NCBI GenBank assembly: GCA_024693065.1
Contig: JAILLP010000004.1
Location: 62,001-126,000 of the forward strand
Reading direction: 5' to 3'
Source: Paludibacteraceae bacterium
Lineage (GTDB): Bacteria; Bacteroidota; Bacteroidia; Bacteroidales; Paludibacteraceae
Length of the DNA: 64,000 bases
The notes beneath the pieces are model-generated. The model was not told the origin of the DNA, searched no databases, and saw only the letters and a program-made list of their open reading frames with translations. The translations under genes and the position numbers were made by a program. Shown piece by piece: positions 4,136 through 19,997 of this stretch; position 1 is the first letter of the stretch, and the number at the start of each line of letters is the position of its first letter.

Positions 4136-5350
4136 TCATCTCAGCCCTTCGTGGCTAGGTGTGAAGCCCTCTTGAATGGCTGCGGCGAAGTAGTGGGCGA
4201 TCTCCTTGCGGGAGTAGCCGAGAAGGTCTTCTCCGATGTTGTAGAGGAGGTCGAGCTCCTTCGGGTCGAACCGTTTGTCCGCGATGATGATGCCCATGAT
4301 GTAGAGCAACATGGTGTCGCGTAGGGTAGGGTTGATCTCTAAGATGTTCTTGACGGATTCCTCGAATAGTTTCGAGATGTTCTGCTTGGAGAGTTCCTCG
4401 ATGTATTGGATAGGAAATATCTGCAGGGAGGCGAGGTTGTCCAGTATCTGGTCGGTCTCGTTCGGGTTGATGTAGCCGTCGCAGGAGGCGATGATGAGAC
4501 CCGCCGTGGCGATGAAGACCGAGAGGTTCTTGTCCAGTTCGGAACTGCGCACCTTCATGAGTATCTCGATGAGTCCCTGCATCTTCTCCGTCAACTCCTT
4601 GTCGCTTTGCGCCTCGGAGAAGAGGTGGATGGCCTCCACGCGGATCGGGTTGATCGGGTGGTCGTCGCAGCTGAGACCCTCTTCTTCCTTGAAGTAGTTC
4701 AGGCGTTTGATGTTCTCCTTGATGAAGGAGTCGAAGTCGATGCCCATCTTGTCGAAGTCGAGTCCGGAAGACATCTTGAAGAAGGCTGATATGCAGCTAT
4801 TTAGGTTTCCGACCGCCATGTATCCGTAGCGGTCCGCCACCAATTCGGCGAGCTGTTGCCACAGCCTGATTTTGTGCGTGAGCAGCACGGGGATATCTCC
4901 GTCCTGGAAGACGAAAGTCACCAGGTTGAGCAGGCGCGCGTCCTGGTTGATGAGGTGCCCGAGCTCATGACCGATGACGAACTTCAGCTCCTCTTCCGTC
5001 ATGAGTTGGATCAGGGCGGAGTTGATGTTGATGATATGCGCTTCGTCCTTCTCCTGCGCCATGATGGCGAATGCGTTGACTTCGGAGCTTCCTGTGATGT
5101 AGAAATCCACCTTCTCCTTGAAGCCCAGTTTATTCTTCACCTCGTTGAAGAGGTTGTAGTATTTGTTCAGGAGTTTTTCGTCCACCTTGATGCTATGGCC
5201 TTCCAGCGAGTTTTTCCAGTAGTTCTGCTTGGTAGGTATGCGGGTCGCCTTGATGATTTCTTGCAGGACATCTCCCTGCATGGACTTATAGATTTGTTTG
5301 AAGAGGTCCTTCTCCAGTTGGATGGAGGTGTTTAATTTTTTTGCTGACAT
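4136..5350 (-). CDS. M48-family zinc metallopeptidase with TerB-like C-terminal domain
   Basis: 404 residues from ATG 5350; the frame is open 47 codons further upstream, but that part overlaps the flavin reductase and has no coding look. HELGH at 128-132 with E169LVAD173 as third zinc ligand identifies an M48 gluzincin. No membrane helices are seen, so it resembles the soluble M48 members. Residues about 305-400 (SVFIATAGLIIASCDGYINP, DPKELDLLYNIGEDLLGYS) form an all-helical module resembling the TerB tellurite-resistance fold, which often accompanies stress or defence proteins. Substrate unknown. It lies 25 nt downstream of the flavin reductase and could be co-transcribed with it. Confidence 0.8.
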   Translation of the reverse strand: MSAKKLNTSIQLEKDLFKQIYKSMQGDVLQEIIKATRIPTKQNYWKNSLEGHSIKVDEKLLNKYYNLFNEVKNKLGFKEKVDFYITGSSEVNAFAIMAQEKDEAHIININSALIQLMTEEELKFVIGHELGHLINQDARLLNLVTFVFQDGDIPVLLTHKIRLWQQLAELVADRYGYMAVGNLNSCISAFFKMSSGLDFDKMGIDFDSFIKENIKRLNYFKEEEGLSCDDHPINPIRVEAIHLFSEAQSDKELTEKMQGLIEILMKVRSSELDKNLSVFIATAGLIIASCDGYINPNETDQILDNLASLQIFPIQYIEELSKQNISKLFEESVKNILEINPTLRDTMLLYIMGIIIADKRFDPKELDLLYNIGEDLLGYSRKEIAHYFAAAIQEGFTPSHEGLR

Positions 5351-5375
5351 TGTTGTCTGATTATAAAAGTTTGTG

Positions 5376-5936
5376 TTAAAGGTTCTTACCGTCGTGGAAG
5401 GCTTTGCCGACGGTCTGTCCGAGGCGGATATATCCCTTGTGGATCGGGTCGTAGGCGATGAGGTGCATCTTCTCGACGTCCGGCTTCCCATCCTCCGCGA
5501 GACACTTCTCGTCTGCGAGGATGTTCACGATCTCTGCGATGATGTTGTAGCCGTTCTCGTCCGCACCGACCTTCTCTTTGATGCGGCACTCCAAGGTCAT
5601 GGGGAAGACGTCGAACACAGGTGCGTTCACGTGAGGCGCCTTGCTCTCCTTCCAACCTGTCTTCTTCATCTTGTCGGGGTCTTTCCTTGCGCTTACGATA
5701 CCCACGTAGTCGCAGGCGGTCAGGGTCTCCTCGGTACCGAAGGCCACGGTGAACTCTCCGCAGCGGTTCAAGTTGTCTGTCGTGGCGTGGGAGCCCATGC
5801 AGATCATGATCTCGTTCTCCTCCCATTGACCTCCCCAGGCAGCGTTCATGGCGTTGGCCTTGCCGTTGGCGTCGTAGGTGCCTATGATCAGTACCGGGAG
5901 GGGGAGCATCCACGGACCTGGTTTAAAGTTCTTCAT
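5376..5936 (-). CDS. Flavin reductase-like (flavoredoxin) protein
   Basis: 186 residues, full length for the flavin reductase/flavoredoxin family with an FMN-binding split barrel. It opens with the family pattern PLPVLIIGTYDANGKANAMN and continues with AAWGGQ and VAFGTEETLTACDYVGIVSA, the strand and flavin-binding loop of these proteins. It would bind FMN and act as a small electron-transfer or flavin-reducing enzyme in the cytoplasm; the partner is not evident. The start ATG at 5936 gives the usual family N-terminus. It lies 35 nt downstream of the HAD phosphatase. Confidence 0.85.
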   Translation of the reverse strand: MKNFKPGPWMLPLPVLIIGTYDANGKANAMNAAWGGQWEENEIMICMGSHATTDNLNRCGEFTVAFGTEETLTACDYVGIVSARKDPDKMKKTGWKESKAPHVNAPVFDVFPMTLECRIKEKVGADENGYNIIAEIVNILADEKCLAEDGKPDVEKMHLIAYDPIHKGYIRLGQTVGKAFHDGKNL

Positions 5937-5971
5937 TTATTGTTTGGTTAAAAGATTATTATTCAGTTTGT

Positions 5972-6601
5972 TTAATTGGCTTGTCGCGAAAGTAGGTCAC
6001 GCAGTTCCTTCTCCCACTTCCGTTCCCTGTCCGCCAGGAGCGTATGGAACCCTAGCCGTTTGGCGCTGTCGAGGTTCTCCTGTGTGTCGTCGATGAAGAC
6101 GGTCTCTTCCGGACGGATATTGCTTTGCTGGGCTACTTGGCGGAATATCTCAGGGTCGGGCTTCTCCAAACCCATCTCATGGCTGAAGAACACCTTGTCG
6201 AAGTGTTGCGTTATGTTAGCCCGTTCACCCCCGAACCAGCGGTCGAGCACCGCATTGTAGTGCAGGTCGTTGATGTTGCTGAGCAGGTAGGTGGGGTGTT
6301 GTACGTGCAGTTGGTCTATCATGCCGAGGATATGGTCGGGCAGGGTGATGAGTACGCTGTTGAAGGTGTCGCATATCTCCTTGTCCGTGGTGTTTTTCCC
6401 GCAGTGCCGTTTCAGCCACGCCACGAAGTCCGCCGTGCTGGTTTTGCCGCACATGTAGAGGGACATCTCCTTCTTGATGGATCTTTTGCGGAAGATCATG
6501 AACCATTTGGACATGCCGATTGAGCGGAAGCCGCGCGATAGTTGCTCCATGTCTATGTCCACAATTACTCCGCCAAGGTCGAATAGTATGTTTTTTATCA
6601 T
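5972..6601 (-). CDS. HAD-superfamily (IA) phosphatase
   Basis: 209 residues from ATG 6601; the open frame extends upstream but without coding character. Motif I is FDLGGVIVDID, whose second aspartate is replaced by Gly as in the YihX/sEH-type subgroup. Motif II is at SNIND, the motif III lysine at GLEKPDPEIF and motif IV at FIDDTQENLDSA. The helical cap lies between residues 15 and 90. This matches the glucose-1-phosphatase/YihX-like class of HAD-IA enzymes, so it probably dephosphorylates a small sugar phosphate; the substrate is not determinable. It heads a probable three-gene minus-strand run with the flavin reductase and M48 peptidase. Confidence 0.85.
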   Translation of the reverse strand: MIKNILFDLGGVIVDIDMEQLSRGFRSIGMSKWFMIFRKRSIKKEMSLYMCGKTSTADFVAWLKRHCGKNTTDKEICDTFNSVLITLPDHILGMIDQLHVQHPTYLLSNINDLHYNAVLDRWFGGERANITQHFDKVFFSHEMGLEKPDPEIFRQVAQQSNIRPEETVFIDDTQENLDSAKRLGFHTLLADRERKWEKELRDLLSRQAN

Positions 6602-8400: not shown

Positions 8401-8717
8401 CTGTTGTACTATTTAACCATTTACAATTTACTTTTTTCTCTGTTTTCTCTTCCCCTATTCAAAAAGAACCATTACCTTTGCGGAAAATATTGTCTAACCC
8501 TTTTAAATTTAAAGTTAGGAAAGGGTAGAGAAAATGAGTAGAAAGTAGTTTATACATCCATTGAGTTTAGGAGCCTACGGCTGGAAAAAGGTCGTAGCAG
8601 TGTTTGTTTTGTCATTTTCATCTAAACTCTTCATTCCAAATTCATTTAGTTTATTACGTTGATGGCAATGCCTTTAAACTTGTGTGTGGCATTGGCTTCA
8701 TAACAGCTTATTTTATC
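8401..8717 (+). other. Promoter region and structured 5' leader of rtcB-prfH
   Basis: A -7 box TACCTTTG at 8473-8480 suggests a transcript start near 8487 and a leader of about 230 nt with no gene. It holds three hairpins: CTAACCCTTT/AAAGGGTAG (8494-8528), CTACG/CGTAG (8574-8597) and CAATGCC/GGCATTG (8666-8672 with 8688-8694). No tRNA-like fold and no CTACG element are seen. A long structured leader may allow control after initiation. Confidence 0.45.
8473..8480 (+). promoter_or_regulatory. -7 box of the rtcB-prfH promoter
   Basis: TACCTTTG is a perfect TAnnTTTG match. No clear -33 TTTG is seen in the pyrimidine-rich stretch upstream. Confidence 0.5.
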
Positions 8718-10115
8718 ATGGGCAATATTAAAACAAAAGAATTGACCAGACTTGGATACAAGGATAATTTGGCGAAAAGCATGATCGTGCAGATTGTGGC
8801 GCGTCATTGCAAGCATGTGCCGAACGAAGAGATTCTGTCCACGTTGGTTGATATACAGAACCAGCCTGAGAAGTTCAGGCAAAATGCGGTGTGGAGACCG
8901 CTGATTGATCTCCTCCGCCCGATCGAACCGGAGGTGCATCTATATGATCTTCTTCCTCAAACCATCGGCTATAGGGTTTACGGGGAGGAGGAGATCGAGC
9001 CCTTGGCTCGGCAACAGATCGAGATGGCCATGAGGCTACCCGTCACCGTCGGTGGGGCCTTGATGCCTGACGGGCATGCCGGATATGGACTCCCTATCGG
9101 AGGTGTGCTTGCCACTGAGGGCGTCGTGATTCCCTATGCGGTGGGGTTGGACATAGCCTGCAGAATGTCTCTCACTCTCCTCGATGCGGACGCCTCCTTC
9201 ATCGACAGACATCATGATCTGTGCGTGTCGGCATTGCAAAGGAACACTGCCTTTGGCATCAATGCGCAGATGCCTGTTGCGCAATACCACCCTGTGTTTG
9301 ACAAGCCGGAGTTCAAAGAGATCCCTTTGCTGAAAGGCTTCCGCGAAAAGGCGATCCGTCAGTTGGGTAGCAGTGGCAAGGGGAATCACTTCGTCGACAT
9401 CTGTGAGGTGGTGTTGAAGGGGGGTAATGCGCTCGGCTTGCCGCAAGGCTCTTACGTCGGACTCTTGTCCCACTCTGGCTCCAGAGGGTTGGGGGCGAAG
9501 ATCGCCGAGCATTTCACCTCCATCGCGAAATCCACATGCAGACTGCCCGTTGAGGCGGGTGCGTTTGCTTGGCTCGATCTGAAAACGGAGGCGGGTGAGG
9601 AGTATTGGCGGTGCATGACAATCGCTGGCGAATATTCGGAGGCTAACCACGAACGCATCCATGGCAATGTGATGGAGGCGCTGGGTTTGAGACCTTTGGC
9701 GAGCGTGAGCAACCATCATAACTTCGCATGGAAAGAGATCCTTTGCGGTGGACGTGAGGTGATTGTGCACCGTAAAGGTGCGACGCCTGCTCATCTCGGT
9801 GAACTGGGACTGATCCCTGGCAGTATGGCCTCGCCCGGGTATCTTGTGAGCGGTCTCGCTCATGCCGACTCGCTCTGCTCCGCTTCGCATGGGGCTGGTC
9901 GGGCAATGTCACGGCAGGAGGCCCGTAACACGTTCAGCCGCCACGCCTTGCGTAAGTATCTGGCGGAACGGAACGTCACATTGATTGGTGGTTCCACGGA
10001 GGAGGCGCCGCTCGCCTATAAGGATATCGATCATGTGATGGCCTCTCAGCAAGAGCTGGTGAGGATTGAGGGAACCGTCATCCCTCGTGTGGTAAGAATG
10101 GCGGAAGAGGAATAA
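8718..10115 (+). CDS. rtcB: RtcB-type RNA ligase, PrfH-linked (RtcB2 type)
   Basis: 465 residues from ATG 8718; the frame is open upstream but lies in the leader. RtcB ligases join 2',3'-cyclic phosphate/3'-phosphate and 5'-OH RNA ends using GTP and Mn2+. Ligands are visible at D145 and C148 (GLDIAC), H224 (GNHF), H252 (HSGSR) and H333 (SNHHN), and the guanylylated histidine is H391 in SHGAGRAMSR. The Gly-rich nucleotide loop HRKGATPAH is intact. prfH follows after 16 nt in the same direction. This pairing is the known RtcB2-PrfH operon, in which PrfH releases ribosomes stalled with a cleaved 16S decoding centre and RtcB re-ligates the rRNA. All catalytic residues are present, so the enzyme should be active. 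Confidence 0.93.
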   Translation: MGNIKTKELTRLGYKDNLAKSMIVQIVARHCKHVPNEEILSTLVDIQNQPEKFRQNAVWRPLIDLLRPIEPEVHLYDLLPQTIGYRVYGEEEIEPLARQQIEMAMRLPVTVGGALMPDGHAGYGLPIGGVLATEGVVIPYAVGLDIACRMSLTLLDADASFIDRHHDLCVSALQRNTAFGINAQMPVAQYHPVFDKPEFKEIPLLKGFREKAIRQLGSSGKGNHFVDICEVVLKGGNALGLPQGSYVGLLSHSGSRGLGAKIAEHFTSIAKSTCRLPVEAGAFAWLDLKTEAGEEYWRCMTIAGEYSEANHERIHGNVMEALGLRPLASVSNHHNFAWKEILCGGREVIVHRKGATPAHLGELGLIPGSMASPGYLVSGLAHADSLCSASHGAGRAMSRQEARNTFSRHALRKYLAERNVTLIGGSTEEAPLAYKDIDHVMASQQELVRIEGTVIPRVVRMAEEE

Positions 10116-10131
10116 CTGATAAAAAAAAACA

Positions 10132-10749
10132 ATGGGAAGATATATACAAGTTACATCGGGACGGGGTCCCGTGGAGTGCTGCCGGGTGGTGGTGCTCGTG
10201 ATGAAGAAACTGGTCGCCGACGCCAATGCCAAAGGCTTGAAAGCGGAGGTCGTCGACCGTGAAGAGTGCGCATGCGACGGATGCCTCTATTCGGTGGTTC
10301 TATCGCTAGAAGGTGAGAACGTTGATTCGTTTGCCGCCGAGTGGGAGGGCAGTGTGCAATGGGTAAGCACGCAGAATCCATTCCGTCCCCATCATGAGCG
10401 GAAGAATTGGTTCGTGGGTGTCCATGCCTTCGATCTGCGACAGCCTGCCCATGTCAAGGACTCGGACATCGTATATGAGACCACTCGCTCCAGCAAGAAG
10501 GCGGGTGGACAACACCTCAACACGACGGATTCGGCCGTGAAGGCGATTCATCTGCCCACAGGCGTTTCGGCCATGGGCGAGGATGAACGTAACCAACACA
10601 AAAACAGGCGCTTGGCACATGATCGTCTTCTGTTGAAACTCATGGAGATGGAAGATGAGAAGAAGGCGGAGCAGGACCGTGTCATTTGGATGAATCACAA
10701 TTTGTTGAAACGTGGCAATCCGGTGAAGAGATTCAAGGGGGAACTGTGA
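10132..10749 (+). CDS. prfH: Peptide chain release factor H
   Basis: 205 residues. It has the class I release-factor catalytic domain with GGQ at 125-127 in RSSKKAGGQHLNTTDSAVKA, a short N-terminal region in place of the stop-codon-reading domains, and a basic C-terminus ending NPVKRFKGEL. Length and layout match PrfH, not RF1/RF2. PrfH recognises ribosomes whose 16S rRNA has been cut in the decoding centre and releases the peptide so that the partner RtcB can repair the break. It is 16 nt downstream of rtcB and surely co-transcribed. A large inverted repeat follows the stop codon. Confidence 0.95.
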   Translation: MGRYIQVTSGRGPVECCRVVVLVMKKLVADANAKGLKAEVVDREECACDGCLYSVVLSLEGENVDSFAAEWEGSVQWVSTQNPFRPHHERKNWFVGVHAFDLRQPAHVKDSDIVYETTRSSKKAGGQHLNTTDSAVKAIHLPTGVSAMGEDERNQHKNRRLAHDRLLLKLMEMEDEKKAEQDRVIWMNHNLLKRGNPVKRFKGEL

Positions 10750-11080: not shown

Positions 11081-11725
11081 ATGGAACAGAATGTGAAACC
11101 AATTGAAAGGAAGGATTCCCCTGCGGTGAGCGTCATGGTCTTGATGGAGCTGGCGGCCCTGCTTTGGTGCTGCGCGCAGTTGATGAGTTGCCAACCTAAA
11201 TCCGCTGAACCGACGAGCGTGGTGGAGCCGAGCGTCTGTGATACCGTAGCCGTGGAGATAGAGACGAATTATTTCCCCGCCATTGAACGTTACTTCGTGA
11301 ATGAAATCGGCAAACAGTATGCCGAGGCGGAGTATTGCGTGCCTTTCCATAAGATCGTCTCGGTTGACGAGCGTGACGCGGAGAACATCTTGGTGTGGGG
11401 CGATTTCTGGGTGTTCAACTACAATCGGTCGGGCGATACGCTGAAGACGGTGTCGGGCGGAAACCACGCTGGTTTGCTGCATATCCGACAAACCGACACT
11501 GGCTTCGAGGTGGCCTCTTTCGACCAGGTGGCTGACGGTTCAGACAATCTGAAGAGCGCCCAACAGATCTTCGGGGATAAGTACGAGGCTTTCCACGATT
11601 TCCATAGCAATGAACAGAAACGTGAACAACGTAGGTTGGAGGTTCTTACGGAGTATGTGCGGAAACAAAACATCCCAGTCTCCTATGTCTTGGATTATGG
11701 TTGGCCGGCTATACCGCTGAAATGA
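11081..11725 (+). CDS. Putative lipoprotein, unknown function
   Basis: 214 residues. A hydrophobic stretch after a short charged N-terminus (VMVLMELAALLWCCAQLMSC) ends in a lipobox-like QLMSC, suggesting an envelope lipoprotein. The body is mixed alpha/beta with EIETNYFPAIERYFVNEIGK and a hydrophilic helical tail. No family is recognised, but the layout (conserved helix, then DAENILVWGDFWVFNYN and GGNHAGLLHI) resembles small NTF2-like lipoproteins of Bacteroidales; this is weak. Its 3' end overlaps the convergent WYL gene by 31 bp. No obvious link to RNA repair. Confidence 0.7.
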   Translation: MEQNVKPIERKDSPAVSVMVLMELAALLWCCAQLMSCQPKSAEPTSVVEPSVCDTVAVEIETNYFPAIERYFVNEIGKQYAEAEYCVPFHKIVSVDERDAENILVWGDFWVFNYNRSGDTLKTVSGGNHAGLLHIRQTDTGFEVASFDQVADGSDNLKSAQQIFGDKYEAFHDFHSNEQKREQRRLEVLTEYVRKQNIPVSYVLDYGWPAIPLK

Positions 11726-12768
11726 CAAATTCCCTCTTCGGGGTCTTTCATCTCCTTCTCATACATGCTCGCCGCTTGCTTCAATTTGTCCCGCATGTAT
11801 TCTCTGGCATTCCGTGGCCGAAGAATCTGAATGCCCGGTCCGTACGACATGAAGACGGAGTACATCTCGAAATTGATCACCACATTGATGCTGAAGGTGC
11901 AGCTGCCATCCTCCTTGTTCTCTTGGATAATCTTCTGAGAGGAGTGGATAGGCTTTGTCTTGATATATTTGCTTTGCTCACGGTTCGCCCAGAAGATGAT
12001 TTTTCTGGGCGTGTTGTTGATGTTTTTACTCACACCTATCACATCGTCGAAAAAGTGCTCCGGGTCGAAGTCCGGATTCTCCCGGAAAGGCGCATCCGAA
12101 GGCTCGACGCTTACGATGCGGTCCAGCGCTAGGTTGTATAGCTGGAGGTTGGTCGCCTTCGAACCGAACAGGAACCAACGGTTGCGGAACTCCTTCAGCA
12201 GATAGGGGCAGAGTATGTACTCGACAGGCTCCCTAGCGGAGAACGATTGGTACATGATCCGCAAGGTCTGCTTATTGCTGATATAGTTGTAAAGTGGCGT
12301 GAGCAGACGGATGCCCTTCAGGTCGGGCACGCTGTCGAAGTGGATGATGGGTTTCCTGTTGTTGCGCGTGATGGAGAGCTTGTCCTGCAGACGACTCACC
12401 ACGTCCGACATCTCGGAGAACTGCTCAAAGCCCTCCAACTGCCTTAGCATGTCTACCGCCTCCTGCATGACATCGTAGTCGTTTTGCGACATGGGCATGT
12501 TCATGATGGAATAATCCTCCTCCGCGTAACGGTAGTACTTGTGGTCGTACACCTCGATGGGCGCATTGTACCCTAGCTTGTCGGAGCGCATTATCTGGAT
12601 GTCGCTCTGTACGGTGCGCACGGAAACCCCTTTGCTGATCCCCTCCATCTCGTAGAGCGCGTCGGAGCAGGCCTCGACTAAATCCTCGAGCGTCCAACGC
12701 CGATAGGGGTTGCGTAGACAGTTGTCTATGGTCTTGTAGCGTATCAACGCATTCTTGTTGGCTGGCAT
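11695..12768 (-). CDS. WYL-domain transcriptional regulator
   Basis: 357 residues: an N-terminal winged-HTH region (1-120), a WYL domain (about 150-240: SNKQTLRIMYQSFSAREPVE, YILCPYLLKEFRNRWFLFGS, LYNLALDRIVSVE) and a C-terminal WCX extension (260-345). WYL regulators often control defence, DNA-damage and RNA-repair genes and bind a ligand or nucleic acid through the WYL barrel. It is transcribed away from the second rtcB across a 367-bp intergenic region that contains the palindromic CTACGCAA-N5-TTGCGTAG site. By position it is the prime candidate regulator of that site and of the two others like it. Its N-terminus is almost duplicated at 7415-7828. Confidence 0.9.
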   Translation of the reverse strand: MPANKNALIRYKTIDNCLRNPYRRWTLEDLVEACSDALYEMEGISKGVSVRTVQSDIQIMRSDKLGYNAPIEVYDHKYYRYAEEDYSIMNMPMSQNDYDVMQEAVDMLRQLEGFEQFSEMSDVVSRLQDKLSITRNNRKPIIHFDSVPDLKGIRLLTPLYNYISNKQTLRIMYQSFSAREPVEYILCPYLLKEFRNRWFLFGSKATNLQLYNLALDRIVSVEPSDAPFRENPDFDPEHFFDDVIGVSKNINNTPRKIIFWANREQSKYIKTKPIHSSQKIIQENKEDGSCTFSINVVINFEMYSVFMSYGPGIQILRPRNAREYMRDKLKQAASMYEKEMKDPEEGICHFSGIAGQP

Positions 12769-12867
12769 ATTTTTTATTAATATCTGATGGGTCTATAATT
12801 CATTTCGTGGGATATTTGAATCTGTTTCGGGGTCGGTTTACGTGAATACACGTTACCACGTTTCCAA

Positions 12868-12955
12868 TTGTACAGACGCAATATTTTGCGTCTCTACGTC
12901 CCCCGCCCCGGCATCACGGTGTCGATTGTACAGACGCAATATTTTGCGTCTCTAC
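12868..12955. repeat. Dispersed palindrome dimer, left of the second rtcB
   Basis: Two copies of GTACAGACGCAATATTTTGC-GTCTCTAC (12870-12897 and 12928-12955) are separated by about 30 nt containing CCCCGCCCCGGCATCACGGT. A near-identical dimer occurs right of the gene at 14311-14396. Confidence 0.9.
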
Positions 12956-13023
12956 GGTGACAATTATGCTAATATAACCTTTTCTGCAGAAAAAAATCCG
13001 TTCGAATGTAAAAATTTTTTCAG

Positions 13024-13060
13024 CTACGCAAATAGATTGCGTAGTGACATTCTTACTTTG
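13024..13060 (+). promoter_or_regulatory. Promoter/operator of the second rtcB
   Basis: A perfect inverted repeat, CTACGCAA (13024-13031) and TTGCGTAG (13037-13044), is followed 8 nt later by the -7 box TTACTTTG (13053-13060). It occupies the place of the -33 element. Related elements at the same distance from a -7 box lie at 6832-6868 (+) and 8168-8132 (-). Confidence 0.75.
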
Positions 13061-13135
13061 CATCGTGAATCTTCCATTCGGGTTGTCGGGTGGGGTGCCA
13101 CAAGAAGAAAAGTGTAATTTAATAGATTGATAACG

Positions 13136-14308
13136 ATGGTAATAAAAACGATTAACAACCGTTTGGTTAAGATTTGGACCGACGATGTGGAGGAGTCGGC
13201 CATGCGTCAGATTGAGAACCTGACCACCCTTCCGTTCCTCTTCCACCACCTGGCCATCATGCCTGACGTGCACGCTGGTATGGGTATGCCGATCGGTGGG
13301 GTGCTCGCCTGCAAGGATGTTGTCATCCCTAATGCGGTGGGCGTTGATATCGGTTGCGGAATGTGCGCCGTGAAGACCAATTGGAAGGTGGGCGACATCC
13401 CTATGGAGGTGCTCCGTAAGCAGATTATGCGAGGAATCCGGAAACGTATTCCTTTGGGTATGGACCACCACAAGGAGCCTCAAGACGAGCAGTACCTGCC
13501 TCAAGGTTATGACCTGGATAAGCTGGAGGTGGTGAACCGTCGCCAGCACTCCATCCGGCACGAGGTGGGTACGTTGGGAGGTGGTAACCACTTCATCGAG
13601 CTGCAGAAGGATGAGGAGGATACGCTTTGGATCATGATCCACTCGGGTTCGCGTAACCTGGGAAAGCAGGTGGGCGATTTCTACAATAAGCTGGCTGCTT
13701 CCCTGAACGAACGTTGGTACTCCAGCGTCGCCCCTGAGCTGCGTCTGCCTTTCCTGGCCCGTGGATGCAAGGAGTTCGGTATGTACTGGGAGGAGATGAA
13801 GTATTGCATCGACTTCGCTTTGTGCAACCGTAGACTGATGATGGAGCGCATTGAGGAGATCCTTGCGGATGCGCTCAAGGGTATCGAGTTCGAACCGATG
13901 ATCAACATCGCCCACAACTACGCCGCCGTCGAGAACCACTTCGGGTCGGACGTCATCGTGCACCGCAAGGGCGCCACGCTTGCCCGAGAGGGTGTCGTCG
14001 GTATCATCCCGGGCTCGCAGGGTACGGCTTCGTATATCGTCGAAGGCCTTGGCAACCCTGACTCGTTCTGCTCCTGCTCGCACGGTGCGGGTCGCGTCAT
14101 GTCGCGCAAGATGGCCATCGATACGCTGGATATGCGACAGGAGGTGGAGATGCTGGAGGCGAAGGGGATCGTCCACGCCATCCGCTCCCAAGATGATATG
14201 CAGGAGGCCTCGGGTGCCTACAAGGACATCGATACGGTCATCGCCAACGAGGCGGATCTGGTCAGGGTGAAAACAAAATTGTTGCCGGTGGCGGTGATCA
14301 AGGGGTGA
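13136..14308 (+). CDS. rtcB: RtcB-type RNA ligase (canonical short form)
   Basis: 390 residues from ATG 13136; a TTG three codons earlier is unlikely. All RtcB signatures are intact: MPDVHAGMGMPIGGV, Mn ligands D71 and C74 (VDIGCG), H152 (GNHF), H169 (HSGSR) and H260 (AHNYAA), and the guanylylated histidine H316 in CSHGAGRVMSR. The HRKGAT nucleotide loop is present. It is clearly distinct from the 465-residue PrfH-linked paralogue 4.4 kb upstream, so the cell has two RNA ligases in one island. It is followed by three structured RNAs and the 755-residue TerD-like protein on the same strand. It is flanked on both sides by near-identical palindrome dimers. Its likely substrates are cleaved tRNAs or the neighbouring tRNA-like RNAs (inference). 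Confidence 0.94.
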   Translation: MVIKTINNRLVKIWTDDVEESAMRQIENLTTLPFLFHHLAIMPDVHAGMGMPIGGVLACKDVVIPNAVGVDIGCGMCAVKTNWKVGDIPMEVLRKQIMRGIRKRIPLGMDHHKEPQDEQYLPQGYDLDKLEVVNRRQHSIRHEVGTLGGGNHFIELQKDEEDTLWIMIHSGSRNLGKQVGDFYNKLAASLNERWYSSVAPELRLPFLARGCKEFGMYWEEMKYCIDFALCNRRLMMERIEEILADALKGIEFEPMINIAHNYAAVENHFGSDVIVHRKGATLAREGVVGIIPGSQGTASYIVEGLGNPDSFCSCSHGAGRVMSRKMAIDTLDMRQEVEMLEAKGIVHAIRSQDDMQEASGAYKDIDTVIANEADLVRVKTKLLPVAVIKG

Positions 14309-14396
14309 TTGTACAGACGCAATATTTTACGTCTCTACGTACCCCGCCCCGGCATCACGATGTCGATTGTACAGACGCAATATTTTGCGTCTCTAC
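14309..14396. repeat. Dispersed palindrome dimer, right of the second rtcB
   Basis: Palindromes at 14311-14338 and 14369-14396, with the same GC-rich CCCCGCCCCGGCATCACGAT linker as the left dimer at 12868-12955. The first copy begins 2 nt after the rtcB stop codon, so these hairpins may also stabilise or end the rtcB mRNA. Confidence 0.9.
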
Positions 14397-14442
14397 GGAA
14401 CCCGCCCCCGATTTGTGGTCCGATTGATGTTTTAAAATACAT

Positions 14443-14494
14443 TCACGATTTTTCCGTCATTATTTCGTGATTAAACAAAATGTATGTATTTTTA
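14443..14494 (+). promoter_or_regulatory. Candidate promoter for the structured-RNA array
   Basis: A -7 like TATTTTTA (14487-14494, one mismatch to TAnnTTTG) lies 7 nt before the first stem of the small RNA. An inverted repeat, TCACGA (14443-14448) and TCGTGA (14465-14470), lies just upstream and may be an operator. Confidence 0.4.
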
Positions 14495-14501
14495 CGTTCA
14501 T

Positions 14502-14586
14502 AAGACGGACTAAATGGTTCTTACTTCTATTAGTATGAGACCTTCGGGGCTCAAACAGGGCAGAACCGTGATTTCCGTCTTTTTTT
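14502..14586 (+). ncRNA. Small structured RNA with terminator-like closing stem
   Basis: AAGACGGA (14502-14509) pairs perfectly with TCCGTCTT (14574-14581), nested over GGTTCT/AGAACC and an apical GAG-CC-TTCG-GG-CTC hairpin. A run of T (14579-14586) follows the closing stem. The fold is a compact multi-stem RNA of about 85 nt that would end transcription, or partly end it, just before the first tRNA-like RNA. It has no open frame. It may be an independent sRNA or an attenuator for the downstream array. Confidence 0.6.
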
Positions 14587-14588
14587 AT

Positions 14589-14678
14589 GCGGCGGTAAGC
14601 TTTGTAATTGCCTCTTCCAAGGCCTAAACGTATGCTTACTCCTAATGGTTACTGTTGGTTCGAATCCAACCCGCCGCT
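14589..14678 (+). ncRNA. tRNA-like RNA 1 (acceptor and T arm, no anticodon arm)
   Basis: A perfect 7-bp acceptor GCGGCGG (14589-14595)/CCGCCGC (14671-14677) and a canonical T arm GTTGG-TTCGAAT-CCAAC (14654-14670) are present. In place of the D and anticodon arms is a 58-nt insert closed by TAAGC/GCTTA (14596-14600, 14634-14638), with an inner GCCT/AGGC hairpin. No 5-bp stem with a 7-nt loop can be found, so it cannot decode. Length is 90 nt. It begins 3 nt after the T-run of the preceding RNA. Likely a non-coding tRNA mimic, in the way bacterial Y RNAs carry tRNA-like modules; identity with that family is not shown. Confidence 0.75.
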
Positions 14679-14686
14679 CAATAAGG

Positions 14687-14760
14687 AAAAGGTCAAGAGC
14701 AACTTGCTTCTGTAACACTTTGCTAAAGAGGCTCCATCAGTTGTTCGATTACCTCTCTTT
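14687..14760 (+). other. Structured linker between the tRNA-like RNAs
   Basis: 74 nt with AGAGG (14727-14731) pairing with CCTCT (14752-14756). It starts with AAAAGGTCAAGAGCA, resembling AACAAGGTCAAGGTCAGCA after tRNA-like RNA 2, so the array looks like two [tRNA-like + hairpin] modules. Confidence 0.45.
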
Positions 14761-14763
14761 TAT

Positions 14764-14951
14764 ACCGCGATAGCTCAGTTGGTAGAGCAATAGTTTTATT
14801 TGTGATGTCATTTCCTCCCGAAGGATTAATCATCGTATAACGGTTGTGTGAAGCCCTTCTTCACCCCGTGATGTCATTCCCTTCCAAAGGATCAATCATC
14901 ATATACTTCTATTTCTACTATGTGTCGCAGGTTCGATTCCTGCTCGCGGTG
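14764..14951 (+). ncRNA. tRNA-like RNA 2: full tRNA body with about 115-nt anticodon-loop insertion
   Basis: Every tRNA element is canonical except the anticodon loop. Acceptor ACCGCGA (14764-14770)/TCGCGGT (14944-14950), D arm GCTCAGTTGGTAGAGC, anticodon stem ATAGT (14790-14794)/ACTAT (14917-14921), 5-nt variable loop, T arm GCAGG-TTCGATT-CCTGC (14927-14943). The loop (14795-14916) is 122 nt instead of 7. It carries two 38-nt repeats (14802-14839 and 14868-14905; 33 of 38 identical, all five differences transitions), each able to fold as GATG..CATC around an inner CCT/AGG stem, flanking a GTGAAG/CTTCAC hairpin (14848-14864). It is too small for a normal group I intron. Between rtcB and the TerD-like gene it is a candidate ligase substrate, sensor or scaffold RNA. 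Confidence 0.8.
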
Positions 14952-14964
14952 CGCTTTTTATAAC

Positions 14965-15024
14965 AAGGTCAAGGTCAGCATACTTCAAATCCGAATTGTA
15001 GTTTCTCTGCTGACCCATTACCTT
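14965..15024 (+). promoter_or_regulatory. Hairpin just before the TerD-like gene
   Basis: GGTCAGCA (14973-14980) pairs perfectly with TGCTGACC (15008-15015), extended by AAGGT (14965-14969)/ACCTT (15020-15024). It ends 16 nt before the ATG at 15041, so it may sequester the ribosome-binding region or protect the 3' end of the tRNA-like RNA. Confidence 0.6.
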
Positions 15025-15040
15025 TTAAAATTTTAATGTT

Positions 15041-17308
15041 ATGGATAACAATGTTTTAACAGAAGTGGCCTTGCGCTACAAGGCGGTGTTCCTGGATGTG
15101 AACCGTGCGGATATCAACCTGCAGTCGGAGGCGACCGCTCCCGTCTTGGCGCTCGTCCGCCGCTTGCAGGAGAATGGTTACTGCGTCAGCGAGGAGTTGC
15201 TCCATGCGTTGAACAATGTCCCTGTGGATCGCCTCGCGGAGATCACTTCGTGCATCAATGAGGTGATGGGTGTGGACCTCAACTGGACACCGCTCGTCAA
15301 GGGCTGGGATGTGCCTACGGGTGAATCCTTGGCCGATCATCTCATCACGTGGGTCGCTAATATCTTTGGCAAGAAGGCTGGTTTCAAAGGCACTACATTG
15401 CCTTGCGGTCACCTGATCCCGGAGGGTACTTTCCCCCTGGAACGCTATAACGGATGCCCTTTCTGCGGCAAGCCTTTCGAAACGTCCGACTTTGTCTACA
15501 AGGGGCAGGGTAGCAAACTGAAGGAACTGCGCCTCTTCACGATGGAGGATATGGTGTATGTGTTCCGCTCGCTCCTGACGTCCGCCACACCGTTGGATGG
15601 TACGCAGCAGGATTCGTTGAGCCAGTTGTTGAGGCTCTTCCCGCTGCCTGACGATGTCGAGGTGACGATGAAGGAGACCGCCATGCTCGTCATCAGGATG
15701 CTGGTGGAGCAGGGTAGGGCTGACGAGGCGATGCGCTTCCTGAAGACTCCGACCGACATCCTCCGCTACCTCTGGTTCGAGAAGACGGGCTTCGCGCAGA
15801 TCATCGAGCCGAAGACGCTTGTGGCCCACGCCAGCAAGTTGTACTTCCACCTGTGGGGACCGCTCGACAGAAGCCAGGACGCGGCCATTGACATGAAGCG
15901 TAAGCTGATGCTGAAGTACGATCGTAAGGCTTGCCTGCGTGTGGCGAAGTGGCTGAACGATATCCCGATGACGGCTGCCCAGTCGGCCGAGAACATGAAC
16001 CCGAAGCGTGGCATGTGGGTGCGCATGATCCGTGCGCTCCGTTTGGGCGAATACTCCCGCAAGAAGGGCTTCGACCGCTTGGCGGAGATCCTCGATGTCT
16101 TCTATAAACAAGACTATTCCACATGGCAGGGGCGTGTCGACAAGGCTCGTTCCGCGAATGATGCGGAGGCCACGCTGGCGCTGCTGAGGGAGCGTCCGGG
16201 ACTCTTTGCCCGTTGCCTCTTCGCTTCTATGTTGCGCTTCGGTACAGACAAGACGCTGGCGGCCTTCTCGGAGGTTGAGGATCGTATGCCTGCCCGCTTG
16301 CTGCTCTCGCTCTGCAATGCGGCGGAGACCTACTTCGACCCGAAGGCGGAGCGCCTGGCTCGCCCTATCACAGGGGGCGTCAAAACGATTGAACCGAATA
16401 AACTGCTGGTGCTCTACGACGAGGAGACCCTCCAAGGAATGATGGAGGCGATCAAAACACTCTACCAACGTTCCATGAACAAACGTTTCGCGGCGCAACC
16501 GTGTGAGGCGAAGCGCATCTATATCGATCCTTCGCTCTATAATATCCCTGTGAGCGTGGGCGACCGTTCCGCCACCATCCAGGACGCCTCCTGCGCATTG
16601 ATGGGTACGCGCTTCCCGGTGTCGGGCGATGCGGTGCGACTCTTCCTCCACTGGGGAAAAGGTCTCGGTTGCCGCCCGATCGACATGGACTTGAGCTGCC
16701 GTGTCGCCTTGCCGAACAACCAAATCGCTGAGTGCGCCTACTACAGCCTGACCTGCGTGGGGGCGAAACACTCGGGCGACATCCGTTGGGTGCCAAAAGG
16801 CGAGATGGGTACGGCCGAGTACATCGAGCTCTCCCTCCCTGAGTTGGAGGCTGCCGGCGCCACGTACGTGACCTTCACTTGCAACGCCTACTCCTCGGGT
16901 ACGCTCTCGCCAAACCTCATGGTGGGTTGGATGGATTCCGCCTACAAGATGAAGGTGTCGGAGGAGACAGGTGTGGCCTACGACCCGTCGTGCGTGCAGC
17001 ACATGGTGCGCATCAGCGAGGGGAACCTCACCAAGGGATTGGTTTTCGGTGTGCTGGATGTGGCGAAGCGTGAGATCATCTGGCTTGAGATGCCTTTCAC
17101 GGCGCAGACGTTGCGGGGAGCGGACAGTGCCTCCATCGAGGCGTTGCTCCATAGGCTGGAGAACAAAATCACGGTGGGCCAGCTCCTCGACATCATGGCG
17201 GAGGCGCAACACCTCGAACGGGTGGAGCGTGCCGACGAGGCCGACGAAACCTACACCTACGAGTGGGCGCTCAACCCGGCGGAGGTGACGAAACTGCTGA
17301 CAGTGTGA
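15041..17308 (+). CDS. Zinc-ribbon / helical-repeat / TerD-like protein of the RNA-repair island
   Basis: 755 residues, no signal or membrane segment. Residues 120-146 form a zinc-binding knuckle pair (PCGH, then CPFCG: C122, H124, C139, C142). Residues about 150-480 are all-helical, with repeats such as RGMWVRMIRALRLGEYSRKK and ERPGLFARCLFASMLRFG that resemble HEAT-like blocks in large Ter-linked proteins. Residues about 495-690 look like a TerD-type beta-sandwich (IDMDLSCRVAL, then KHSGDIRWVPKGEMGTAEYI and MVGWMDS). I infer an RNA- or protein-binding scaffold; a Ro/TROVE-like role is possible but no vWA MIDAS motif is present. It lies directly downstream of rtcB and the tRNA-like RNAs on the same strand and ends at a strong terminator. 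Confidence 0.7.
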   Translation: MDNNVLTEVALRYKAVFLDVNRADINLQSEATAPVLALVRRLQENGYCVSEELLHALNNVPVDRLAEITSCINEVMGVDLNWTPLVKGWDVPTGESLADHLITWVANIFGKKAGFKGTTLPCGHLIPEGTFPLERYNGCPFCGKPFETSDFVYKGQGSKLKELRLFTMEDMVYVFRSLLTSATPLDGTQQDSLSQLLRLFPLPDDVEVTMKETAMLVIRMLVEQGRADEAMRFLKTPTDILRYLWFEKTGFAQIIEPKTLVAHASKLYFHLWGPLDRSQDAAIDMKRKLMLKYDRKACLRVAKWLNDIPMTAAQSAENMNPKRGMWVRMIRALRLGEYSRKKGFDRLAEILDVFYKQDYSTWQGRVDKARSANDAEATLALLRERPGLFARCLFASMLRFGTDKTLAAFSEVEDRMPARLLLSLCNAAETYFDPKAERLARPITGGVKTIEPNKLLVLYDEETLQGMMEAIKTLYQRSMNKRFAAQPCEAKRIYIDPSLYNIPVSVGDRSATIQDASCALMGTRFPVSGDAVRLFLHWGKGLGCRPIDMDLSCRVALPNNQIAECAYYSLTCVGAKHSGDIRWVPKGEMGTAEYIELSLPELEAAGATYVTFTCNAYSSGTLSPNLMVGWMDSAYKMKVSEETGVAYDPSCVQHMVRISEGNLTKGLVFGVLDVAKREIIWLEMPFTAQTLRGADSASIEALLHRLENKITVGQLLDIMAEAQHLERVERADEADETYTYEWALNPAEVTKLLTV

Positions 17309-17516: not shown

Positions 17517-18848
17517 ATGGAACGAGTCTTCAAACGGAAATTGTACAATAGACTGCTTGAGTGGAAGCGCATTCAGAACGGAAAGACGGCCATCTTGGTG
17601 GAAGGCGCAAGGCGTGTGGGCAAATCCACTCTCGTTGAACAATTCGCTAAAAACGAATATGAATCCTACATCTTGATTGATTTCAACGAGGCCTCGGAAG
17701 CGGTCAAATCATTGTTCAGCAATCTGATGAACAAGGATTTCCTCTTTTTGCAACTTCAGTCCATCTACAATGTGGTGCTGAAAGAGCGTAAGTCGGTCAT
17801 TGTGTTCGATGAAGTGCAAAACTGCCCGTCTGCTCGTCAGGCCATAAAATATCTTGTCAAAGATGGTCGATACGATTATATTGAGACGGGTTCACTTATC
17901 AGTATTAAGAAAAATACAAGGAATATCACGCTTCCTAGCGAGGAAGAGCGTGTGACGCTCTATCCGATGGATTTTGAAGAGTTCCGTTGGGCTTTGGGGG
18001 ATGAGGCTACGGTACCTCTGTTGCGTACGTTCTTCGATAGACGTTTGCCACTCGACAAGGCACACCGCGACAAAATGCGTGATTTCAGGCTCTACATGCT
18101 TGTCGGTGGTATGCCACAGGCAGTAAACACATACTTGGAAACCAATAACTTCAGTATGGTTGACCTTGCTAAGAGGGGTATTATTAGAATCTATCAGGAT
18201 GATTTCCAGAAACTTGACCCTACAGGGCGTTTGGAAACTCTCTTTATGGGAATTCCCTCTCAATTGAGTCAAACGAGTAATCGTTACAGACCGTTCTCCG
18301 TGCTTGGCAATGTGAATGATGATAAGTTGGCGGAACTCCTGAAAGACCTGGAAGATAGCAAGACAACCCTCTTCTCGTACCATTCCAACGACCCGAATGT
18401 GGGTATGTCGCTCACGAAGGATATTTCTAAGTACAAGATTTTCTGTGCTGATACGGGTTTGTTTGTCACCCTCGCCTTTTGGGACAAAGACCATACCGAG
18501 AATGTTATTTACCAAAAACTGTTGAATGACAAACTCAGTACGAACCTCGGTTATATCTATGAAAACATGGTGGCACAGACGCTTGCCACATCGGGGAACA
18601 AGCTTTTCTACTATACATGGGAAAAGGATGCCACACATTATTACGAGGTGGATTTTCTGCTTTCCAGAGGTTCAAAGTTATATCCTATCGAGGTGAAGTC
18701 GTCTGGTTATAACTCGCATAAGTCGCTCGATGCGTTCTGTGAAAAGTTCTCGCATCTCATAGGTAACCGATATCTTGTCTATACCAAAGACCTGAAGAAG
18801 GACATGGAGACGTTGCTGCTGCCTGTGTATATGGCGCAGTTTTTATAG
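17517..18848 (+). CDS. AAA (AAA_14) ATPase with DUF4143 nuclease-like domain
   Basis: 443 residues. N-terminal AAA_14 ATPase with Walker A GARRVGKS (about residues 30-37), Walker B VIVFDEVQ (about 94-101) and sensor region YIETGSLIS. The C-terminal DUF4143 domain contains FYYTWEKDATHYYEVDFLLS and LYPIEVKSS, i.e. a D...E-K core of a PD-(D/E)XK-like fold. These ATPases are abundant and variable in Bacteroidetes, with unknown cellular role; mobility or defence functions have been suggested. It has its own promoter and is bracketed by the 33-bp repeats, which suggests gain as a unit. Confidence 0.9.
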   Translation: MERVFKRKLYNRLLEWKRIQNGKTAILVEGARRVGKSTLVEQFAKNEYESYILIDFNEASEAVKSLFSNLMNKDFLFLQLQSIYNVVLKERKSVIVFDEVQNCPSARQAIKYLVKDGRYDYIETGSLISIKKNTRNITLPSEEERVTLYPMDFEEFRWALGDEATVPLLRTFFDRRLPLDKAHRDKMRDFRLYMLVGGMPQAVNTYLETNNFSMVDLAKRGIIRIYQDDFQKLDPTGRLETLFMGIPSQLSQTSNRYRPFSVLGNVNDDKLAELLKDLEDSKTTLFSYHSNDPNVGMSLTKDISKYKIFCADTGLFVTLAFWDKDHTENVIYQKLLNDKLSTNLGYIYENMVAQTLATSGNKLFYYTWEKDATHYYEVDFLLSRGSKLYPIEVKSSGYNSHKSLDAFCEKFSHLIGNRYLVYTKDLKKDMETLLLPVYMAQFL

Positions 18849-18976: not shown

Positions 18977-19270
18977 TTAATTCTCAGGTAAATATGAGTG
19001 CGTTTGAAAGAAGGCGACCAAAGCTTCTTGGGCAAAGCATGTTTCCATCCGAATAAGCTCTTCTTTTACTAGCTTCTTGTCGCAATTGAATTCTTTAGAA
19101 ATCCATGCCATGTCTTCCTCGCATACATTATCGTCCTCTAGAAATCTTGTAAGAATATCATCCCATAAAACATCATCTCTTGAGCTGTAGTTCGGCAAAT
19201 AGGATTCTATGAATCTCCAAAACATGTTATGCATGTTATCTTTTTGTGCGATATTGTTCATAGTGTGCAA
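18977..19270 (-). CDS. Small protein linked to the HNH gene, unknown function
   Basis: 97 residues (95 or fewer if a later Met is used). Acidic and helical, with aromatic positions (MFWRFIESYLPNYSSRDDVL, FNCDKKLVKEELIRMETCFA). No family recognised. It overlaps the end of the HNH gene by 35 bp in another frame, so the two are translationally coupled. It might be an accessory or immunity-like partner of the nuclease (inference from coupling only). Confidence 0.6.
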   Translation of the reverse strand: MHTMNNIAQKDNMHNMFWRFIESYLPNYSSRDDVLWDDILTRFLEDDNVCEEDMAWISKEFNCDKKLVKEELIRMETCFAQEALVAFFQTHSYLPEN

Positions 19271-19997
19271 GTAATAAGTTTTTGTCGGGAGAGAATTTTT
19301 CAGGCATCAATATTGCTTTGCCATTTAGTTGTACGAGGTATTTGCGGAATGTTTCTTCCGCTCCATCAATCATCTCTTCTGAGATTTCAATAGTGTATTG
19401 GGGTGTGACCGTGAAAAGAAATTTATCAAAGGCTTTGTGAAAAAGTGGATTCATGCATAGCCCATTTTTAGGGTTTGTACGGTTCTTGACATCCTCAACC
19501 CATGATGAGATGTGACATGCTTCAAGTAATTGACGATGGCTTATGCCTGTGATGCAGCAACGATTGTCGTAGGAACATAGCACTACATCGTGAAAGAACT
19601 GCTGATTTATACGTTGCCGTGTAATAGTTGTTCGTTCTTTCCCTTCTGGCAAATCTGATAAGTCTACTTTTGTCGATTCCTCTATTGTTTGATGGCGGAG
19701 CTCCGCAATGATTTTTTCGCTTTCGTATGCTAATTTTTCAGGGTTCTCAAAAAACTCATTCCACACCATCTCATCCATTTTACTGGAGTGGACTAACCCA
19801 ACTATGCCTTTCTCTTTCAGAATTGGGTCAAAACTCCCTAGGTTTCCGATTTTTAGGTTTAATGCGGCTGGTGTTCTTCCGATAATTTGGGCGTATTCTT
19901 TAATCAAAGGGTGATGCGCACTACTATTCTTGAATGGTATTTTACAATATACATTCAAAGCGACAATGGTTTCTTCTCTTGTCCAATTATTTGACAT
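19236..19997 (-). CDS. HNH endonuclease domain protein
   Basis: 253 residues. The C-terminal half has an HNH_2-type core: CCITGISHRQLLEACHISSW, then NGLCMNPLFHKAFDKFLF, in which LEACHI, N and the final HKAFD supply the metal and catalytic residues. The N-terminal region (MSNNWTREETIVALNVYCKI) is the helical segment found in Bacteroidetes members annotated as putative restriction endonucleases and is probably DNA-binding. No methyltransferase is adjacent, so a restriction role is not shown; modification-dependent cutting or another defence role is possible. It is coupled to the small gene at 18977-19270. Confidence 0.85.
   Translation of the reverse strand: MSNNWTREETIVALNVYCKIPFKNSSAHHPLIKEYAQIIGRTPAALNLKIGNLGSFDPILKEKGIVGLVHSSKMDEMVWNEFFENPEKLAYESEKIIAELRHQTIEESTKVDLSDLPEGKERTTITRQRINQQFFHDVVLCSYDNRCCITGISHRQLLEACHISSWVEDVKNRTNPKNGLCMNPLFHKAFDKFLFTVTPQYTIEISEEMIDGAEETFRKYLVQLNGKAILMPEKFSPDKNLLLAHYEQYRTKR

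Follow-up and report, generated by a model that had tools for sequence, protein, structure and literature searches.

A shared, permuted RNA module in hairpins and tRNA-like RNAs upstream of RING-TerD genes in Bacteroidota

What is an RNA with a complete tRNA body, whose anticodon loop is replaced by 122 nt, doing next to an RNA ligase gene, and does it stand alone? An initial annotation had placed such an RNA at 14764-14951 of a 64,000-nt stretch of DNA (here the window) from the Paludibacteraceae bacterium MAG GCA_024693065.1 (contig JAILLP010000004.1, 62,001-126,000, forward strand); relatives whose RING proteins are 98-99% identical to that of the window are Paludibacteraceae of rumen or omasum samples. 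The RNA proves to be one of five structured RNAs, all on the coding strand, that lie within 732 nt without an assigned gene between rtcB and the gene of a RING-helical-TerD (RING-TerD) protein (Table 1). The other four, built on the same module, were absent from the annotation; its remark that no RNA of this design had been described holds in that tRNA is the only Rfam class above threshold, but it overlooked that the RNA is one element of a wider array, and its interpretation as a whole is partly supported. No description of these module RNAs was found in the part of the literature that was covered, and the array has the look of an undescribed RNA system with which some gut and rumen bacteria sense or handle damage to RNA.

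An RNA array between rtcB and a RING-TerD gene

Table 1 Features of the rtcB-array-RING-TerD region, in window coordinates.
Feature	Position	Strand	Evidence
WYL-domain regulator gene, divergent from rtcB	11695-12768	-	PF13280 41.8 bits; PF25583 40.9 bits
Palindrome CTACGCA-N7-TGCGTAG before rtcB, likely operator	13024-13044	.	Recurs in relatives
rtcB RNA ligase gene	13127-14308	+	PF01139 360.7 bits (gathering 27)
Module hairpin 1	14502-14581	+	R1 52.4 bits (copy in training set); fold z -4.1
Minihelix RNA	14589-14679	+	R2 40.2 bits; A4 alignment; fold z -4.0
Module hairpin 2, divergent J2 TTGCTTC	14686-14758	+	R1 29.9 bits, E 7e-4; fold z only -1.8
tRNA-like RNA, permuted module in anticodon loop	14764-14952	+	RF00005 51.8 bits; R2 99.9 bits
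Module within tRNA-like RNA	14802-14909	+	S2' GTGATG ... J2 ATACTTC; partial duplication and extra hairpin extend it
Module hairpin 3, leader of RING-TerD gene, ends 14 nt before start	14962-15027	+	R1 47.9 bits; fold z -4.1
RING-helical-TerD protein gene, 755 aa	15041-17308	+	NF041916 154.5 bits (cut-off 600); Prok-RING_4 25.4 (cut-off 27)

The annotated position between rtcB and a TerD-like protein is confirmed by the Pfam score of the ligase and by Foldseek, which matches the C-terminal part of the RING-TerD protein to TerD (3ibz, E 3.2e-5, TM 0.64 by target; also 2qz7). An in-frame ATG at 13136 is a likely start of rtcB, and a palindromic repeat, ACAGACGCAATATTTT(G/A)CGTCTCTACG, flanks the gene in four copies (12872-12898, 12930-12956, 14313-14339 and 14371-14397), for which Rfam matches were sub-threshold only. 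Some 2.4 kb farther upstream is a second RNA-repair unit (8604-10749), in which prfH (TIGR03072, 231.6 bits, above cut-off) comes after an rtcB relative (PF01139, 262 bits). Past the RING-TerD gene, an AAA_14/DUF4143 protein (17517-18848; PADLOC PDC-S01, 310 bits) and an HNH protein that resembles phosphorothioate-DNA restriction enzymes, below cut-off (19236-19997), give a defence-like neighbourhood; PADLOC returned no match for either rtcB, for the RING protein or for P0001, the product of an ORF in a related array (see below).

The tRNA body is complete. The Rfam tRNA model aligns over its full length to 14764-14951, above its gathering score of 29 and with the insertion in the anticodon loop, and the stems can be read directly as acceptor ACCGCGA/TCGCGGT, D GCTC/GAGC, T GCAGG/CCTGC and anticodon ATAGT/ACTAT, the two strands of the last being separated by 122 nt, as the annotation had it. 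The RNA is a cloverleaf by its RF00005 score and lacks the 7-nt loop and anticodon of a tRNA; tRNA-like RNAs without an anticodon loop should not decode, and their maturation probably involves RNase P and the addition of CCA. Plain ARAGORN misses it but in intron mode places it at 14764-14952, with an insert of 115 nt, and ARAGORN called no tmRNA with a tag peptide in the window. Between 12770 and 15050 no Rfam class other than tRNA rose above threshold, and matches to mir-592 (twice) and CLRN1-AS1, all far below their cut-offs, were taken as chance. The predicted fold is much more stable than that of shuffled sequences (-58.8 kcal/mol versus a shuffled mean of -39.1; z -5.1; 0/200 shuffles).

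The insert was described in the annotation as two 38-nt repeats, each folding as a hairpin, around a third hairpin. Our recount agrees on the repeats, which begin at 14802 and 14868 and are identical at 33/38 positions, with five differences that are all transitions, but in the fold of minimum energy they form one long arm by pairing with each other instead of two hairpins. Nor is a three-hairpin insert supported as the defining design, since one permuted module is the norm in relatives: each of 24 related tRNA-like RNAs (set A2, below) has a single module copy, which argues that the duplication is local to the clade of the window. A DNA search found the full 188 nt in 6/121 genomes, all congeners; its remaining matches cover just the 5' end of a tRNA or some short piece. 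The middle hairpin of the insert (14840-14869) recurs as 30 nt at 97% identity on other contigs of two congeners (G010:C52 and G011:C277), and by this sequence match it may be a dispersed repeat that entered the tRNA-like RNA.

One module in two topologies

Hairpins and tRNA-like RNAs share one module, which is permuted between the two forms and covaries in both. It was first recognised by reading intergenic stretches among 80 relative loci (14 loci plus L058, L100, L086 and L034) that had been gathered through the RING protein, which is thus present there by construction. The parts of the module are a helix S1, an internal loop CYAA/NAUU, a helix S2 and a strand UACUYC. In the hairpin form S1 is outermost, and the order is S1, J1 (CYAA), S2 (7 bp and a closing pair), J2 (UACUYC), a variable tip, S2', J3 (NAUU) and S1'; hairpin 1 of the window reads CGGA/TCCG for S1, CTAA for J1, TTACTTC for J2 and GATT for J3. 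The tRNA-like form runs S2'-J3-S1'-loop-S1-J1-S2-J2, so that the module is inside out and the tRNA anticodon stem stands where the hairpins have their tip. The minihelix consists of a tRNA acceptor and T arm in which the module replaces the D and anticodon arms.

Two sets of sequences carry this comparison. The hairpins (A1, n = 41) were chosen by a script that demanded core letters and pairing, and they trained R1, a covariance model of the module hairpins; the tRNA-like RNAs (A2, n = 24) comprise all ARAGORN intron-mode calls in arrays with a 28-63-nt insert, picked independently of the module, and RNAs of this type trained R2, a covariance model of the tRNA-like form. Outside A2 stand the window, whose copy was kept out of R2 training, and five relatives, with inserts of 115-123 nt; A4 is an alignment of 15 minihelix sequences. 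The AA of J1 and the AUU of J3 are present in 41/41 hairpins and 24/24 tRNA-like RNAs, and the UACU of J2 in 41/41 and 23/24, its U, C and U being invariant in both forms and its A the exception, in a comparison for which the hairpins were picked by a pattern holding those letters and the tRNA-like RNAs by ARAGORN intron mode alone.

Pairing was conserved along with the letters. In the hairpins S1 pairs vary (AGGU/ACCU, CGGA/UCCG and others), a pair is possible between the base that precedes S2' and the one that opens J2 in 39/41 cases (29 A-U, 10 U-A), and S2 is 98.6% paired with 6/7 pairs changed on both sides, covariation figures that are partly built in because the selection pattern itself demanded pairing and core letters. 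When sites were picked by letters only in 975,882 bases, 170 fell on the plus strand and 2 on the minus strand, and in the 123 distinct sites S2 was 81% paired versus 58% for shuffled partners (maximum 62%, 1000 shuffles), at least 13 of the 170 sites lying in A2 tRNA-like RNAs, where the hairpin partner rule is wrong. In the A2 set the proportion of paired cells was 99.4% in the acceptor stem, 99.0% in the D stem, 100% in the T stem, 87.0% in S2 and 81.9% in S1; 22/28 pairs had changes on both sides, and 0/500 shuffles matched the observed value on any of five measures. Two of the tRNA-like RNAs, folded alone, only modestly beat their shuffles (L049, z -1.9; L098, z -1.75), and the minimum-energy fold of L049 is without the module.

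Scanning the 80 loci and the window with R2 gave 31 tRNA-like RNAs of at least 75 bits, in 24/80 loci and the window, of which 7/31 lay outside the training set; ordinary tRNAs scored at most 54.5 bits and minihelix forms about 30-48 bits. The annotation had proposed homologous inserts and stem covariation in relatives as its own test, and both were found, in the 24 A2 RNAs and the 31 R2 matches. These data bear directly on the simplest alternative, an ordinary tRNA gene damaged by insertion: the bodies do look like tRNAs for Thr, Phe, Arg, Gly, Ile and His, but an accident would not give 31 such RNAs with conserved inserts, nor compensatory changes in both the tRNA stems and the insert, and we regard it as refuted by conservation and scarcely conceivable. 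Module-less, ordinary tRNA-Phe genes occur in the same arrays at L044:5347-5420, L086:5447-5520 and L102:5212-5287.

Partners and distribution of the array

At the level of loci, R1 gave 157 matches at E<=1 in the 80 loci and the window, all on the plus strand and all upstream of the RING gene, reaching 76/80 loci and the window (41 sequences trained R1); no module was found by R1 in L055, L060, L101 and L051, the last with only 212 nt upstream. Single loci have up to five hairpins (L052, L064 and L097) and up to three tRNA-like RNAs (L052 and L058). In L034, a congener of the window that also carries a different tRNA-like RNA, an extra 282-aa ORF (P0001, 5069-5917), for which Pfam gave no match, lies inside the array (4979-5987) behind its own module hairpin. 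In L132 (3700-5100, minus strand) a palindrome-promoter motif, read by eye, occurs three times, before a small ORF, before a hairpin and tRNA-like RNA, and before a hairpin, tRNA-like RNA, hairpins and RING gene, as if cassettes had been stacked.

An array so placed could be a cis-regulatory leader only, in which the module controls translation or transcript stability of the RING-TerD gene and the tRNA-like RNAs are processing signals for RNase P/Z. The upstream position on the coding strand of every R1 match in the 81 sources fits this, as do the last hairpin, which ends 7-21 nt before the start of the RING match in 66/76 loci, and the ORF of L034 behind a hairpin of its own. However, a leader has no need for three scaffolds, for as many as five hairpins and three tRNA bodies in a locus, or for compensatory conservation of acceptor, D and T stems, and in L098 and L099 a tRNA-like RNA opens the array; we judge it unlikely that the array is a leader and nothing else.

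The link to rtcB proposed in the annotation holds for the window, where the gene adjoins the array, and weakens among relatives: rtcB was found upstream in only 15/61 loci with at least 3 kb upstream, and the link of the array to RING-TerD is the strongest. WYL relatives were found upstream of the RING gene in 19/61 of these loci (one, in L042, at 28% identity). Loci with a tRNA-like RNA had rtcB more often than those without (12/20 versus 3/41; p 2e-5), and likewise WYL (14/20 versus 5/41; p 1e-5) and the palindrome (17/20 versus 5/41; p 4e-8), in Fisher tests on 61 loci that ignore phylogeny and shared ancestry. A TTTGC-type promoter sequence follows the palindrome, both in the window, where the two precede rtcB, and in L048, L054, L062, L067, L069, L082, L083 and L097, where they stand directly before the array without a close rtcB; in three of these eight loci the WYL neighbour is confirmed by Pfam.

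Because rtcB adjoins the array, and because a small invariant core occurs in circularly permuted forms, the module might instead be a self-cleaving ribozyme or splice element whose cyclic-phosphate and 5'-OH ends are joined by RtcB into a spliced tRNA or circular RNA; hammerhead ribozymes are known in circularly permuted forms. Yet no Rfam model of a self-cleaving ribozyme or a group I/II intron matched 12770-15050 at E<=1, an intron match to the insert being what the annotation had named as evidence against its own view. The splicing it had considered also finds no support in the 24 relatives, where, by eye, the sequence around the module varies, no anticodon recurs and excision would leave no constant anticodon loop; moreover, 46/61 loci have no close rtcB in the examined flank and, save in module-less loci, have the module. 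We consider catalysis or splicing very improbable.

Genome searches paired the module with the RING gene in three samples. Within the genus, R1 (150 places scored per genome) matched 10/16 genomes, with one cluster per genome, and the RING protein profile matched exactly the same 10. In a class-level sample the RING protein was found in 5/295 genomes, all five with a module upstream; strict R1 filters gave 2/295, both with RING, and the other three modules were found beside RING by unfiltered search. In an order-level sample all three RING-bearing genomes (3/247) had a module, two by strict R1 and the third by unfiltered search. R2 found tRNA-like RNAs in L132, L134 and L143. The other genomes searched, mostly with strict R1 filters that lose weak matches and that, in the rows listed, passed 16-19 places per genome on to scoring, yielded no module outside RING-bearing ones; a strict-filter R2 scan of 41 whole genomes missed the window's own 188-nt copy, with G005 as its sole match, and its negatives carry little weight. 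Because the genus, class and order samples, in which module and RING were searched for separately, also pair the two, we take the array and RING-TerD to be the core and rtcB to be a frequent partner.

RING matches were also present in 23 plasmid records, seven of which were examined; the Segatella hominis and Hymenobacter volaticus records have hairpins together with tRNA-like RNAs of 91.0 and 76.5 bits, and a Prevotella oral taxon 299 record has one module hairpin. Near four RING relatives outside Bacteroidota (23-29% identity), R1 reached at best 18.8 bits (E 0.024, opposite strand) and neither R2 nor Rfam found a tRNA-like RNA, and no convincing module was seen near the RING relatives of Streptomyces, Vibrio, Niallia and Variovorax. 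Since the module was not found beside these relatives, the basic role of the RING protein may not need the RNA. In Variovorax a distant RING relative has rtcR close by, and in Vibrio another is close to an RNA ligase gene; these are single cases, consistent with a role in RNA repair.

The RING-TerD protein itself resembles the MXAN_6230/SCO0854 RING-TerD family (NF041916) in its RING, helical region and TerD fold, and it differs in reaching only 154.5 of 600 bits, with residues 12-689 of 755 matched; it is a divergent branch, here with an RNA array. Its AlphaFold2 model has a mean pLDDT of 77 overall and 89.8 for residues 160-490. Foldseek gave no match of the helical domain to a solved structure at E<=0.001, and Ro60 was not among the 50 matches listed for either the full model or the helical domain. 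An origin from Ro60/TROVE was rejected, the TROVE family (PF05731) not being found in the genome of the window, which is 100% complete by estimate. A profile search of PDB sequences with alignment A3 gave 12 marginal matches (E 0.006 or worse), ten of them GAPDH. The stretch MNPKRGMWVR is invariant in 37/37 aligned RING-TerD proteins and could contact RNA. Against viral models, the helical domain (window 15518-16510) came closest to a Campylobacter phage protein that is uncharacterised (E 6e-4), and third in rank was a phage protein with the annotation tellurium resistant-like (E 0.011); going by these model matches, phages may carry relatives of the domain.

Cargoes, possible working and known systems

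The module is constant and what it carries is not. Array content differs between congeners, such as L034 and L038, whose RING proteins are 93-99% identical to that of the window. The tip of one hairpin (L058:5744-5893) copies the GTPase-associated centre of 23S rRNA (Rfam, 70.9 bits, LSU model positions 1074-1162) and, across 81 nt, is 82-83% identical to stretches that lack annotation in records of Bacteroides, Phocaeicola and Segatella and are taken to be 23S genes. It is the only clear rRNA cargo, and its length put it outside a scan of 66 distinct hairpin tips against 16S, 23S and 5S rRNA, for which a Prevotella record served as reference because no rRNA genes were found in the window's own MAG. 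In that scan 65 tips had z <=2.0, and the L064 tip, against 16S at about position 1240, is a weak candidate (z 3.2; 0/60 shuffles); with one of 66 distinct tips above z 3, general rRNA mimicry by hairpin tips was rejected. Two weak module hairpins (L132:3905-3983, 16.8 bits; L134:1336-1414, 24.1 bits) have tips that hold GGTTCGA flanked by pairing bases; on sequence grounds, these T-arm-like tips are candidates for a further partial tRNA mimic.

Changing cargoes of this kind would be expected of decoys that titrate or mislead RNases, or phage or toxin factors, recognising tRNA or rRNA, with the module as an anchor or stabiliser while an arms race drives fast cargo turnover. The mimicry of tRNA, of the acceptor-T minihelix and, once, of the 23S GTPase-associated centre favours decoys, as do the differences between congeners with near-identical RING proteins and the RNA-repair setting; however, anticodon nucleases would find no site, as no anticodon is presented, and most tips are unlike any rRNA. 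We consider decoys possible, if somewhat doubtful.

The reading that we give roughly even chances is a ribonucleoprotein (RNP) in which the RING-TerD protein docks on the module and tRNA- or rRNA-like cargo is displayed to RNA-damage or repair enzymes; the decoy and leader readings come close behind, and all three overlap. The structure of the module RNAs and their association with RING-TerD are well supported, and it is from these that we infer a function. In the display reading, an RNA-repair locus of Bacteroidota would stand under a divergent WYL regulator gene, and one transcript, here probably running through rtcB, the RNA array and the RING-TerD gene, would yield several small RNAs, each with the common module and its own cargo: a tRNA body without an anticodon, an acceptor-T minihelix, a plain hairpin or, rarely, a piece of rRNA. 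That rRNA pieces can be carried too is indicated by the L058 copy, a single clear case. The RING-TerD protein would bind the module, and the hairpin just before its start could serve autogenous control, as suggested by the position of this last hairpin, by the L034 ORF behind its own and by analogy with RNA-binding proteins that control their own synthesis. The cargoes would be shown to enzymes, such as RNases and RtcB, by which tRNA and rRNA are cut, processed or repaired; the strict pairing of the tRNA stems, together with the elbow letters, speaks for recognition by tRNA enzymes. The RNP would then sense RNA damage, or serve as bait or adaptor in it, working in the manner of Rsr-YrlA.

More tentatively, the RNPs could form an undescribed bacterial class in which RING-TerD carries changing bait RNAs that copy tRNA, minihelix and rRNA. 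It is a similarly speculative idea that the array serves as a bank of baits, in which damage to or capture of a displayed copy would report attack and engage RtcB repair, under selection in conflict. Either way, the array gives RtcB and TerD-domain proteins, whose bacterial roles are in our view poorly understood, a concrete candidate for a partner RNA, and the ideas can be tested in named hosts: Prevotella ruminicola KHT3, Palleniella intestinalis PINT, Segatella hominis HDD12 and Hymenobacter volaticus.

Among known RNAs, tRNA (RF00005) shares with the tRNA-like RNA the acceptor, D and T arms, the GG of the D loop and the TTCGA of the T loop, but the insert of the latter is a conserved module common to hairpins that are not tRNAs. 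Intron-containing tRNAs (group I, or bulge-helix-bulge with RtcB) likewise have an insert in the anticodon loop and rtcB nearby, whereas the module RNA has no intron family match and, by eye, no recurrent exon junction or anticodon. Nearest in logic is the Rsr-YrlA-RtcBA system of Salmonella, an RNA-repair operon with a tRNA-like RNA that has a stem for protein binding (PMC7790460, PMC8394870, PMC7824862); YrlA combines that stem with a tRNA-mimic domain and lies beside rtcB in some RNA-repair operons (PMC8394870, PMC7790460). In the protein site of Y RNA, one strand of a helix has a bulged C and the other a bulge of 3 nt (PMC4726728), a loose likeness to the CYAA/NAUU loop of the module in that both offer offset unpaired bases. 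The YrlA model (RF02553) gave no match at E<=1 in 12770-15050 and at best 35.2 bits, against a cut-off of 69, in five related loci; because these scores are far below cut-off and TROVE was not found, the module RNAs are not filed as Y RNA, and the likeness to Rsr-YrlA-RtcBA is one of logic. Where YrlA has its tRNA-mimic domain, the arrays have a full tRNA cloverleaf whose anticodon loop holds the module, besides hairpins and minihelices, and the linked gene is RING-TerD. The arrays present a conserved, covarying RNA family with an Rfam class only for its tRNA body. One RNA module, in either of two mirrored topologies, is built into at least three scaffolds and goes with one protein family, which hints that RNPs that mimic tRNA and serve RNA repair may have had an origin apart from Ro60 and Y RNA.
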